Source of the DNA: Asaccharospora irregularis DSM 2635
GTDB lineage: Bacteria; Bacillota; Clostridia; Peptostreptococcales; Peptostreptococcaceae
Direction: 5' to 3'
Assembly: GCF_900129815.1 (NCBI RefSeq)
Contig: NZ_FQWX01000004.1
Coordinates: 1 to 64,000, forward strand
Length of the DNA: 64,000 nucleotides
The notes under the pieces are model-generated. The model saw nothing but the letters and a program-made list of their open reading frames with translations, made no database searches and was not told the origin of the DNA. Both the position numbers and the translations under genes were made by a program. Of this stretch, positions 9,593 to 35,733 are shown in pieces. How positions within the stretch are numbered: position 1 is the stretch's first letter; the number at the start of each line of letters is the position of its first letter.

Positions 9593-9640
9593 TGTGGATA
9601 ACCTCCTTGCACTAATTATATATAAAATAAATAAAAATAA

Positions 9641-9658
9641 TAGTAGGAATAGTAGTAG
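9641..9658 (+). promoter_or_regulatory. DnaA-trio element (candidate)
   Basis: Six consecutive triplets TAG TAG GAA TAG TAG TAG. The 3' end of this strand faces the DnaA boxes to the right, and the AT-rich tract lies on the far side. That is the arrangement described for DnaA-trios, on which a DnaA filament extends along one strand during origin melting. Confidence 0.6.
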
Positions 9659-9701
9659 GTGCTGTTAGTAATGTTAATAAGTGTATAGGTGTAAATAAAC
9701 G

Positions 9702-9740
9702 CAAAGATATTAACATGTGTACAAGATGTTAATATCTTTG
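9702..9740. repeat. 15-bp perfect inverted repeat between dnaA and dnaN
   Basis: The arms 9702-9716 and 9726-9740 are exact complements (CAAAGATATTAACAT) around a 9-nt loop. It could end dnaA transcripts, but the minus-strand tail (CGTTTATTTAC) is a poor T-run; on the plus strand the tail is better. Each arm contains a box-like TGTTAATAT. Confidence 0.75.
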
Positions 9741-9831
9741 TTATTTTTTAATGTATATTTTGTGTATAAAATCGACCCCAAAACATATACACATTTTATC
9801 AATAGGATACTAACAAGCAATTGTGAACAGA

Positions 9832-11151
9832 TTACCCCTTTAAATCCGAAACTATTTTGTCTATTTTTATTTTAATTTCTTCATTATTTTGTATATCTTT
9901 TGATATCTTATCATGGGCATGGATTACTGTTGTATGATCCCTTCCTCCGAACTCTTCACCTATTTTAGGAAGCGATAAATCTGTAAGCTCACGAGTTATA
10001 TACATAGCTATTTGCCTTGGGTAAGCTATAGATCTTGTTCTTTTTTTACAATTAAAGTCTTCCATTTTAATGTTGAAAGTAGAAGCGACCTTTTCTTTGA
10101 TCCTAAGAACAGTGATTTCTTCTGTTTTTGAAGTAGTGATTATATCCTTTAAAGCTTCAGCTGCTAAATCTAGAGATATAAGTCTATTTGTAAGAGATGA
10201 ATAAGCAACTACTCTTGTTAAAGCTCCTTCTAGCTCCCTTATATTAGATTTAATATGTTTTGCTATATAAGTCATTACTTCACTTGGTACTTTGATGCTT
10301 TCCATTTGAGCTTTTTTTCTTAGAATAGCCACTCTGGTTTCAAAATCAGGAGCTTGTATATCAGTTATAAGACCCATTTCAAATCTAGATCTTAGTCTAT
10401 CTTCTAATGTAGGTATTTCTTTTGGTGGCCTATCACTAGAAATTATAATTTGTTTATTCGCCTCATATAAAGAATTAAAAGTATGGAAGAACTCTTCTTG
10501 AGTATGTTCTTTTCCAGCTATAAATTGGATATCGTCTATCAATAAAATATCTACATTTCTATACTTGTTTCTAAATTCTTCATTTCGATCATCTTTTATT
10601 GAGTTTATAAGCTCATTTGTAAATTTTTCAGAAGACACATATACAACTTTAGCGTCCTTTTTTTGACTCATTATATGATGTCCAATAGCATGCATTAGAT
10701 GTGTTTTTCCAAGCCCAACGCCTCCATATAAGAAAAGAGGGTTGTATGTTCTAGCTGGGGACTCAGCAACGGCAACACAAGCAGCATGAGCAAATCTATT
10801 ACTATTACCAATCACGAACGTATCAAATGTGTATTTTGGATTTAGGTTTGGATAGTTCCTTTTCATTTTTATAACTGGATTATCCTCTCCTAAACTAGCA
10901 ACTTCTTTTTCATCGAGTACAAATTTTATATTGTATTTTTTCAAAGATAGTTGATTTATTGAGTTTTCTATTAAAGTTAAGTACCTATCTTCCAAGATCC
11001 CCTTAGTAAATTCATTGGGAACTAGGAGAAATAAATCGTTTGAGTAAATTTTTAGAGGTACTATTTGTCTAAAAAAAGCTTTGAAGCTAGGGGCAGATAA
11101 TTCACCCTTGATTAGCTGTAGTGTTTTGTCCCATAAAGAAACTATATCCAT
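9832..11151 (-). CDS. dnaA: Chromosomal replication initiator protein DnaA
   Basis: A 439-residue AAA+ initiator. Domain I (1-~80) binds partners; a short linker follows. The AAA+ domain has Walker [17 protein letters not shown] (about 142-157), Walker [11 protein letters not shown] and sensor/arginine segments ([13 protein letters not shown]). Domain IV carries the DNA-binding [15 protein letters not shown] signature. The ATG follows GGAGG at good spacing. Candidate DnaA boxes lie on both sides, pointing to autoregulation and a bipartite origin. Confidence 0.98.
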
Positions 11152-11600
11152 AATATAAACCTCCGAACAGAATAATTAACATTTTCCACAAAGTTATTAA
11201 CAAAAAAGCAAAATATATATATATTTTTTACAAAATAATTAAATCTATGGATAATAATGTGGATATTGAACTAATAAGTAAAATATGTGTAACTTAATAC
11301 TAAAAGATATAAACAGCATGTATATAAAGTTATAAATAGCATAAAAATATACTAAATATAGATTATATTTAGATTATAGGCACATATGATATAAGTTATA
11401 CACATTTCTATCCACAACCTGTGAATAAATTTAATATGTAGATAAGTTATATGAACATTATCAACAAGTATATTAATAATATCAGAATAAACGGCAAAAT
11501 TCAATAATTTATACTCAATTTATCCACAATATTAAGAGTATGTTTATAAAATAATACACAAGAAAAATGTATATATAATATGTTTGGATTTGAATAGATA
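11152..11600. other. oriC: oriC, upstream-of-dnaA DnaA-box region
   Basis: Perfect DnaA boxes are TTATACACA (11396-11404, plus), TTATTCACA (11420-11428, minus) and TTATCCACA (11520-11528, plus). One-mismatch boxes are at 11258-11266 (minus), 11408-11416 (plus) and 11552-11560 (plus). The tract is very AT-rich and has no supported gene. It also carries the dnaA promoter, which I could not place with confidence. Confidence 0.75.
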
Positions 11601-32454: not shown

Positions 32455-33783
32455 ATGGAGGATATGACAAGAGTCCCTCCACATAGTGTGGAATCAGAAC
32501 AGTCAATTTTAGGGTCTATATTGCTTGACAAAGATGCAATAATAACAGTCACAGAAACTATAAAACCAGGCGATTTTTATAAGGAAGCTCATAAAATTAT
32601 ATATGAATGTATGCTATCTTTGAATAACAAAGGAGAACCTATAGATTTAATAACATTAACAGAGGAATTGAAAAATCAAGGATACTTAAATGATGTTGGA
32701 GGGATAAGTTATATAACAAGTCTTTCAACTATAGTACCAACTACTTCAAATGTAAAATATTATGCAGATATAGTAAAAGATAAGTCTGTGCTTAGAAAGC
32801 TTATAAAAGCATCTAATGACATAATAAGTTTGGGATATGATGGTACAACAAAAATTCAGGATGTTTTGGATAAAGCTGAAAAAAAGATATTTGATATATC
32901 CCAAGAAAAAACGAGTGATGATTTTAAACCTATAAATTTAGTGTTGATGGATACCTATGATATGATAGAAAACTTATATACAAATAAGAGCGATGTCACA
33001 GGTATAACAACTGGTTTTAAGGATTTAAATAAAAAAATAAACGGTCTGCAAAGAACAGACCTAGTACTTATAGCAGCACGTCCAGCTATGGGGAAAACAG
33101 CATTTTCATTAAACCTTGTTCAAAATGCAGCCCTAAAGGGAGATGCATCTGTAGCAGTGTTTAGTTTGGAGATGTCAAAAGAACAATTAGTGCAGCGTAT
33201 GCTATCATCACAATCGAATGTAGAATTAAAAAAGATAAAAACTGGGACACTTAATAATAATGATTGGCCTAGAATAATAGATGCTATGGCAGTTTTATCT
33301 GAGGCAAAAATACACATAGATGATACTCCTGGTATAACTATATCAGAACTCAGATCAAAGTGTAGAAAATTAAAAATCGAAAAAGGTTTAGATTTAATCT
33401 TAATTGACTACCTTCAGCTTATGGAGGGTGAAGGGAACAATGAAAGTAGACAGCAAGAAATATCTAAAATATCTAGATCACTAAAGAAAATAGCTAAGGA
33501 ATTAGATTGTCCTGTAGTGGCATTATCTCAGCTATCTCGTGCCCCAGAGCAAAGGGCTGACCATAGGCCTATGTTATCGGATTTAAGAGAATCTGGAGCT
33601 ATAGAGCAGGATGCTGATATAGTAATGTTTTTATATAGAGATGAATATTACCATCCTGATTCAGAGAGCAAGAATATAGGAGAAATTATAATAGCTAAAA
33701 ATAGACATGGAGAAACTGGTGCTGTTGAGTTAGTATGGCTTGGTGAAGTCCAAAGATTTGGGGATAAACTAAGAGAGTTATAA
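32455..33783 (+). CDS. dnaB: Replicative DNA helicase
   Basis: A 442-residue hexameric helicase (DnaB of E. coli; DnaC in Bacillus naming). The N-terminal domain starts VPPHSVESEQSILGS. The RecA-like domain has Walker A ARPAMGKTAFS, Walker B LILIDYLQLM, and RGSG-like DLRESGAIEQDADIVMFLYRDEYY. No intein. GAGGTG ribosome site. Its loader is probably the DnaC/DnaI-like and DnaD-like pair at 42.5-44.6 kb. Confidence 0.97.
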   Translation: MEDMTRVPPHSVESEQSILGSILLDKDAIITVTETIKPGDFYKEAHKIIYECMLSLNNKGEPIDLITLTEELKNQGYLNDVGGISYITSLSTIVPTTSNVKYYADIVKDKSVLRKLIKASNDIISLGYDGTTKIQDVLDKAEKKIFDISQEKTSDDFKPINLVLMDTYDMIENLYTNKSDVTGITTGFKDLNKKINGLQRTDLVLIAARPAMGKTAFSLNLVQNAALKGDASVAVFSLEMSKEQLVQRMLSSQSNVELKKIKTGTLNNNDWPRIIDAMAVLSEAKIHIDDTPGITISELRSKCRKLKIEKGLDLILIDYLQLMEGEGNNESRQQEISKISRSLKKIAKELDCPVVALSQLSRAPEQRADHRPMLSDLRESGAIEQDADIVMFLYRDEYYHPDSESKNIGEIIIAKNRHGETGAVELVWLGEVQRFGDKLREL

Positions 33784-33792
33784 CATGTAGAA

Positions 33793-33933
33793 ATATCCAC
33801 ATGTATCCACAGAACAACCTTTCTGTTTTGGAAAAAAATGTGGATACTTGTAGAAAACAACTTATAAATATTGAAAAATAAAGGATGAAGTTATCCACAT
33901 TATCAACATGTGGGTGTTGATAACTGTTGATAA
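33793..33933. promoter_or_regulatory. DnaA-box cluster downstream of dnaB
   Basis: Within 141 bp: ATATCCACA (33793-33801), GTATCCACA (33803-33811), the complement of GTATCCACA (33839-33847), perfect TTATCCACA (33891-33899), then TTATCAACA (33900-33908) and two copies of its complement (33915-33923, 33925-33933). All are within one base of TTATCCACA. They lie between the dnaB stop and its terminator, ~22 kb from oriC. Confidence 0.75.
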
Positions 33934-33939
33934 GATATG

Positions 33940-33967
33940 GGGAGCTGTAGCTCCCTTTATAATTTTT
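33940..33967 (+). terminator. Terminator after dnaB
   Basis: GGGAGC-TGTA-GCTCCC stem-loop followed by TTTATAATTTTT. Confidence 0.85.
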
Positions 33968-34026: not shown

Positions 34027-34359
34027 TTGAAACTATCAATGGAGTTGAGGAATTTGGATATAAATATAAAATATATATACCCTGAAACTGTATTTATAAT
34101 TAGAGAAATAAATCTATTTAGAATCGTTGATCTTAATATAAAAGAAACGATAGTATTTTATGCTAGAATGATAAGAAATGAATATGAAATATGTATGTTA
34201 AACACGTCAATAGGTAATACTATTGGCATTTTAAAAGTAGATAATACCGAAAAATTTGATGAATTAATAGACAAAATTAAAAGAGAAGAAGAGAATATAA
34301 AAAAGATAAAAAATCTATCTGATATAGAAAATTACATATTAAAAATACTAAAAAATTAA
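34027..34359 (+). CDS. Hypothetical protein, possibly DUF4911-like
   Basis: A 110-residue protein (NIKYIYPETVFIIREINLFRIVDLNIKETIVFYARMI...NSIGNTIGILKVDN type) I cannot place firmly. Size and clostridial origin-proximal location fit DUF4911-like proteins. No signal or membrane segment; the C-terminal third is a charged helix. TTG start is 3 nt after GAGGT, which is tight; an ATG four codons later is 15 nt away. Both are uncertain. Confidence 0.55.
   Translation: MKLSMELRNLDINIKYIYPETVFIIREINLFRIVDLNIKETIVFYARMIRNEYEICMLNTSIGNTIGILKVDNTEKFDELIDKIKREEENIKKIKNLSDIENYILKILKN

Positions 34360-34428: not shown

Positions 34429-35733
<1,305 letters not shown>

Follow-up and report, generated by a model that had tools for sequence, protein, structure and literature searches.

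A conserved, ordered array of predicted DnaA boxes behind dnaB in Peptostreptococcaceae, probably serving DnaA control near oriC

What could a dense group of DnaA boxes be doing outside the replication origin, directly behind the gene for the replicative helicase? The locus that raises this question belongs to Asaccharospora irregularis DSM 2635 (NZ_FQWX01000004.1, positions 1 to 64,000), a 64-kb stretch that we refer to as the window. Between positions 33793 and 33933, seven sites with at most one mismatch from TTATCCACA, four forward and three reverse, lie downstream of the dnaB stop (33783) and ahead of a terminator-like hairpin, which begins at 33939 and is followed by a T-rich tail (Table 1). 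An earlier note on this DNA had claimed seven sites in both orientations within 141 bp, after the stop codon of dnaB and before its terminator, some 22 kb from oriC; the positions proved exact, and we measured 22.6 kb from dnaA to dnaB, mid-gene to mid-gene. The cluster reported there thus stands, and what had been overlooked is that its boxes keep a fixed geometry with opposed boxes, resembling DARS more than datA, and that the pair A/B can form a hairpin. Our search of the open-licence literature, whose coverage mostly leaves out subscription papers, yielded no account of clostridial DnaA boxes clustered behind dnaB. We describe here an array that is ordered, conserved and undescribed in the literature searched, and whose function is probably DnaA control near oriC.

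Table 1. Features of the dnaB 3' array and of the dnaA-oriC region, in window coordinates
Feature	Coordinates	Strand	Basis or remark
oriC2 (dnaA-dnaN gap)	9593..9831		DnaA-trio-like triplets at 9638-9658
dnaA (Bac_DnaA + C-terminal helix-turn-helix domain)	9832..11151	-	Pfam
oriC1 box cluster	11152..11560		motif matches
dnaB, replicative helicase	32455..33783	+	Pfam DnaB + DnaB_C
Extra DnaA box A0 (ATATCCACA)	33793..33801	+	motif match
A/B inverted repeat	33796..33854	+	the DnaA-box duplex forms the core of the stem; covariation of flanks and inner stem between genera
DnaA box A (GTATCCACA)	33803..33811	+	motif match
DnaA box B (GTATCCACA)	33839..33847	-	inverted relative to A, 36 bp from A
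TTGAAA, conserved non-box element of the B-C spacer	33871..33876	+	alignment
DnaA box C (perfect TTATCCACA)	33891..33899	+	motif match
DnaA box D (TTATCAACA)	33900..33908	+	in tandem with C at a 9-bp step
DnaA box E (TTATCAACA)	33915..33923	-	opposed to D; D-E 15 bp in the window, 16 bp in most relatives
DnaA box F (TTATCAACA)	33925..33933	-	10 bp from E
Terminator-like hairpin + T-rich tail, 3' of the array	33939..33966	+	
110-aa ORF, no Pfam family	34027..34359	+	follows the array
purA, adenylosuccinate synthetase	34435..35733	+	family search

We compared the number of sites with chance expectation. The window contains 38 sites with at most one mismatch as against 20.9 expected, while in the whole genome (2.62 Mb) 992 such sites were found against 1305 for a reversed control pattern, showing that the motif is not over-represented genome-wide. 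At the genome density, at least seven starts within a 141-bp span have a Poisson probability of about 1.5e-13, or about 4e-7 after multiplication by every genome position, and 2000 base shuffles of the 155-bp gap gave a mean of 0.05 sites with a maximum of 2. The cluster behind dnaB is the densest of the window, the runner-up among separate stretches being oriC1 with six sites; several predicted DnaA boxes are here clustered, beyond chance, in non-coding DNA outside oriC. Box C is the sole perfect match among the seven boxes of the window's array, and the extra box A0 has a counterpart in genus g20, where a second box likewise precedes A by 10 bp. Elsewhere in the same genome, perfect DnaA-box pairs occur at C26:422 and 486, C45:493-554 and C54:20931-20994, and these may be further DnaA sites.

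We detected dnaB in all 71 genomes of the window's family and analysed its 3' flank in 70 of them (G045 was left out), over flank lengths of 206 to 1900 bp. At least three boxes per 160 bp were present within 1.9 kb downstream of dnaB in 68/70 genomes, representing 22 of the 23 genera, and at least four in 63/70, while upstream of dnaB none of 30 family loci reached three boxes per 160 bp, the maximum being one. Absence from close relatives, the outcome that had been named beforehand as speaking against the site, thus did not occur; the only family exceptions are the two genomes of g6, each 88% complete, both of which are devoid of the cluster. Named records carrying it include Clostridioides difficile CD160 (L012), Clostridium sp. 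CCUG 7971 (L009), Peptostreptococcaceae bacterium VA2 (L010), an uncultured Romboutsia (L011) and Alkalithermobacter (L013). The window's genus is represented by one genome in the comparison set, and its dnaB is nearest to that of genus g3 (92-93% identity), which we take for Clostridioides because the array of C. difficile CD160 (dnaB 92%) is the same as that of the g3 locus L095.

The boxes are not only present but also ordered. They follow the arrangement A> <B C>D> <E<F with consensus start-to-start steps of 36/51/9/16/10 bp, the window having 36/52/9/15/10. When neighbouring boxes (at most one mismatch, steps under 60 bp) were counted in the 70 loci with the spacing left unconstrained, the commonest steps were ++9 (45), --10 (40), +-36 (38), +-16 (36) and -+51 (30). 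When each step was confined to a preset range and each box was allowed up to 3-4 mismatches, the six-box order appeared in 37/70 loci and in 0/70 shuffled flanks; the exact 36/51/9/16 spacing was seen in 28 loci of 9 genera, and A/B plus the quartet, with 32-52 bp from B to C, in 41/70. The quartet C-D-E(-F) was present in 57/70 loci of 20 genera, with D and E at 16 bp in 52 and at 15 bp in 5, the window included; this count allows D and E at most two mismatches, tolerates a poor C or F and imposes the 9-bp and 10-bp steps. In genus g13 (dnaB 60-64% identical), the A/B step was exactly 36 bp in all eight loci read, while the quartet rules found no quartet there. A spacing as constant as this points to DnaA assembling there as a single ordered complex, not on loose sites.

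Conservation at the level of single bases follows the boxes as well. When all 47 loci L089-L135 were aligned regardless of boxes and 15 genera were represented by one row each, box columns were conserved at 0.91 (share of the commonest base) and spacer columns at 0.66, with P 4e-13. The boxes are thus conserved while the spacers drift, and a cluster is kept in 68/70 loci. Rows selected for their boxes (9 genera) gave 0.94 for boxes and 0.73 for spacers, a selection that favours the boxes, and in the alignment A2, whose rows were likewise selected for having boxes, 8/9 bases of box B are invariant across 46/46 rows. Two non-box elements are also kept, namely, GAACA..CTTT within A/B and TTGAAA in the B-C spacer. 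The boxes, their order and spacing, their conservation and their place behind dnaB are all directly visible in these loci.

We then considered genomes outside the family, using a sequence-only quartet model, R1, built from 51 rows with the window's own row excluded; its alignment (A1) comprises 51 of the 57 quartet loci, five with a 15-bp D-E step, the window among them, and one duplicate having been left out. In the window's genome the best match was the site behind dnaB (37.4 bits), followed by matches of 23.1 bits and, at oriC1, 17.6 bits. At an E value of 1e-5, the model matched 61/71 family genomes and 22/226 other genomes of the order; 57 of the 61 best family matches fall in the dnaB 3' flank, although most of these are training rows. 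Of 20 out-of-family matches examined, 8 are flanked by dnaB and purA and 1 by dnaA and dnaN. A search of the class gave 35 matches among 391 genomes, 29 of them outside the order, and in 20 of these latter genomes the matched stretch contained dnaA in 6 cases and dnaB in none; in the other 14 stretches, none of 36 window proteins used as queries was found. We therefore rejected the model as an out-of-family detector of the dnaB site, for which it is not specific, and conservation outside the family rests on a direct count of boxes behind dnaB.

A dnaB match was available in 134 genomes of the order outside the family, of which we took 60 for this direct count, hand-picked across families f2-f12 among the matches listed; 8 genomes already known to have the quartet between dnaB and purA were excluded, while G168 (model match beside dnaB) and G071, G089, G107 and G152 (model matches elsewhere) were included. 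At least three boxes per 160 bp were found within 2.2 kb downstream of dnaB in 29 genomes, as against 0/60 upstream of dnaB and 0/60 after shuffling (maximum 2 in both). The clusters were present in 11/14 genomes of f3, 3/4 of f5, 3/3 of f6, 3/3 of f7, 7/10 of f11, 1/1 of f12 and 1/8 of f9, and in none of the 17 genomes of f2, f4, f8 and f10. The array is thus not essential to the clade, since g6, f2, f4, f8, f10 and 7/8 genomes of f9 are without it. Among 80 dnaB loci from named records, taken irrespective of order, 7 (L009-L013, L031 and L034) have at least four boxes per 160 bp within 3 kb downstream, while upstream of dnaB L088 alone has three boxes. Two of these loci, from Clostridium beijerinckii (L031, 6403-6540) and Clostridium sp. 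(L034), display a different architecture, with 5-6 boxes spaced regularly at 25-29 bp and lying about 2 kb behind dnaB. In three genomes of one other clostridial family (L280-L282), the C-D-E 9/16 geometry, two boxes tandem and one opposed, lies in the dnaA-dnaN gap. Such comparisons suggest that the quartet may be a DnaA-binding module of wider occurrence in clostridia, which in several families of the order has been placed behind dnaB. Phage-borne copies were rejected, the exact C-D-E pattern having 0 matches in viral contigs. Family f51 has quartet-like clusters beside a polysaccharide deacetylase gene (L293 3753-3794, L294 6373-6551 and L296 3679-3711), with ispF (YgbB) as a further neighbour in two of the three, and the window's dnaA and dnaB neighbours were not found in these stretches; they are possibly a lineage-specific DnaA-box locus. 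Family f2 (L197, L199-L201 and L215) has a tandem box pair, which in L201 lies upstream of an ORF that is RecU-like by eye.

Among the functions that such an array may have, we favour on balance that of a conserved origin-proximal DnaA-binding site which is copied early, takes up or inactivates DnaA and would thereby restrain or tune initiation. The C-terminal helix-turn-helix domain of DnaA, present in the window's protein, reads DnaA boxes, and DnaA would bind this predicted extra-origin array, the inverted pair A/B followed 51-52 bp on by the quartet C>D> <E<F, as one ordered complex. With only about 20 kb between the array and oriC, the array would be copied early in each round and its dosage would double early, and the duplicated array would then take up or inactivate DnaA, so that re-initiation would be restrained. 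Both genes lie on one contig, with no wrap at its ends, in 42 genomes; there dnaA and dnaB are 18.4-25.5 kb apart in 37 and 29-67 kb apart in the remaining 5. Conservation gives good support to the view that DnaA has a binding site here, near oriC, the array persisting despite different next genes and despite an ORF between dnaB and the array. We infer DnaA binding, the ordered complex and the effect on initiation, including its sign, from established DnaA biology; for the effect, we rely on datA and on the removal of six clusters in Bacillus, as given in a review (PMC5295017). Of the claim that this is a titration site duplicated early in each round, the predicted DnaA site near oriC is what conservation supports, while titration would be the most economical function for it. 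The quartet model also matches oriC in other families, and the geometry alone therefore does not say titration; nor would simple titration account for the covariation of the A/B hairpin.

Control through a DNA site would be attractive in this family. No protein exceeded the Pfam cut-off for YabA in any of the 71 family genomes, two genomes having weak matches below it, while B. subtilis and L. lactis served as positive controls. For C. difficile, a paper on its origin reports no YabA homologue and states that the regulation of DnaA activity is unknown (PMC7561715), and it is this combination, no clear YabA and an unexplained regulation of DnaA, that makes site-based control attractive. In clostridia without YabA, a 145-bp site beside dnaB and near oriC, whose cluster is found in 22/23 genera and whose quartet in 20, is a concrete and easily deleted candidate for once-per-cycle control. 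Its natural variants, in which F is lost, the spacer is off by one base or the hairpin is broken, could show which box geometry DnaA complexes need.

In the window the array is flanked by the dnaB stop and a terminator, and in many genomes purA lies downstream of it; DnaA bound there could also stop transcripts of dnaB from reading through, or regulate whichever gene comes next, the small ORF or purA. We consider such transcription control quite unlikely. In many genomes the array is followed by an ORF of about 100 aa and then purA, but the next gene is not constant between genera: purA follows directly in g5, an HD-type ORF in g21 and in one g2 genome, and a DUF134-like ORF in g12 (HD and DUF134 named by eye). 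The ORFs of about 100 aa that follow the array in many relatives look similar to the window ORF 34027-34359. Moreover, an ORF separates dnaB from the array in g2 and g22 (ferritin-like, named by eye) and in g11 (166 aa), and in g13 dnaB is faced by a convergent ORF, helicase-loader-like by eye, leaving the array between two 3' ends. The varying next gene and the arrangement in g13 led us to reject a promoter or operator of a flanking gene as the main role, the array probably not being a promoter operator, and together with the intervening ORFs they weaken the idea of the earlier note that the boxes control dnaB transcripts. A different history, in which the array is a displaced part of oriC and thus a secondary or relic origin, has in its favour the C-D-E 9/16 geometry in the dnaA-dnaN gap of L280-L282 and the rank of oriC1 as third-best match of the quartet model in its own genome. 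This reading is hardly probable at all. Both oriC1 and oriC2 of the window carry box clusters in their usual places, and three TAG/TAA triplets in a row, the DnaA-trio test that we applied, were absent near the array in the window and in 57 family loci, while the same test finds two in oriC2; on this absence we rejected a displaced origin. A criterion of four triplets in a row misses oriC2 too. The triplets TAATAGTAG and TAGTAGTAG at 9638-9658 in the dnaA-dnaN gap resemble the description of C. difficile oriC2.

Two further readings concern the geometry itself. The A/B stem showed a covariation of 0.184 as compared with a shuffled mean of 0.098 and at most 0.085 for slid versions, and the inner stem 0.319 as compared with 0.151 and at most 0.193, although relatedness inflates these scores and the outline of the inner stem was itself drawn by eye from those sequences; of 47 distinct rows chosen from the 70 loci, the alignment used (A2) retains 46, without L115. 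Flank pairs of A/B change on both sides in several genera, and six hand-chosen sequences folded with z of -2.9 to -6.3. These data suggest that A/B may also act as a hairpin, either in RNA or in DNA that is single-stranded, with relatedness and possible arm-to-arm template switching still contained in the scores from the flanks and inner stem. A DnaA-box stem on the lagging-strand template could then be a DnaA-dependent helicase-loading site, or the hairpin could form in the 3' end of the dnaB mRNA; as the explanation of the array we regard this as unlikely, since template switching between the arms, or a flank preference common to both boxes, would yield the same symmetry, inner-stem pairs with two-sided change do not exceed shuffles (263/500 reach the count), some flank pairs are broken in g3 (Clostridioides), and the hairpin was examined within the family. 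For the quartet C-F, covariation was at the shuffled level (0.042 versus 0.040), on which we rejected an RNA hairpin there, and an RNA family was rejected because Rfam gave no match at the site under gathering scores. The opposed boxes of the quartet permit another idea, that C/D and E/F hold DnaA molecules head to head, promote release of ADP and recharge DnaA, which would make the array a positive control element of the DARS type. DARS2 is driven by IHF and Fis. The order C-D-E, found with every box at one mismatch or fewer (+9+16-) in 32/70 loci and in 57/70 with looser matching, is that of the E. coli DARS core, and the essential boxes of datA all point one way, while the boxes of the array do not (PMC5742627). 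We nevertheless see no more than a slim chance for a DARS-like role, because fixed opposed boxes may serve other complexes and the literature searched describes no DARS in Firmicutes. More speculative still, and a long shot in our view, the array might be a two-part DnaA machine, in which a DARS-like quartet changes the nucleotide state of DnaA and is coupled to a fork-activated, single-stranded DnaA-box hairpin. If so, the copying of a site about 20 kb from oriC would report that initiation has happened, and the array would replace YabA-type control in a family without clear YabA.

The favoured reading, an origin-proximal site that would restrain re-initiation by taking up or inactivating DnaA, sets the array beside several known systems without making it identical to any of them. 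The A site of the ABC primosome is a single-stranded DNA hairpin containing a DnaA box. The A/B pair is similar in that a DnaA box would form the stem of the hairpin into which it can fold, and it differs in being chromosomal, part of a larger array and conserved across a bacterial family. Like the DnaA-box clusters of Bacillus, the array is a non-coding group of boxes outside oriC. In B. subtilis, removal of six such clusters gave early initiation, according to a review that also doubts significant regulatory clusters in this species, in contrast with E. coli (PMC5295017). In another study, the eight strongest DnaA-binding regions of B. subtilis in vitro, including the two of oriC, have apparent Kd values of 0.13-0.33 uM for ATP-DnaA, the others being sda/yqeG, ywlC, ywcI/vpr, yydA, trmE and gcp/ydiF (PMC4447404). 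None of these strong regions lies behind the helicase gene, as the array does, the comparison being one of location alone. In E. coli, DnaA boxes crowd near oriC, as stated in a further paper (PMC12371093). Like datA of E. coli, the array is an extra-origin box cluster that would be copied soon after initiation. The essential boxes of datA, which also needs an IHF site, are unidirectional, and the core of DARS has three boxes, I being opposed to II and III, with equal spacing in DARS1 and DARS2 (PMC5742627). In the array, A, C and D run forward and B, E and F in reverse, in departure from datA, while C-D-E consists of two tandem boxes and one opposed, with the spacing kept, as in the DARS core. 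By its opposed boxes, the array therefore fits the DARS rule better than that of datA (PMC5742627); it differs from the DARS core in adding a further opposed box and the inverted pair A/B, and the likeness lies in the order of the boxes and in a spacing that is kept within each system.
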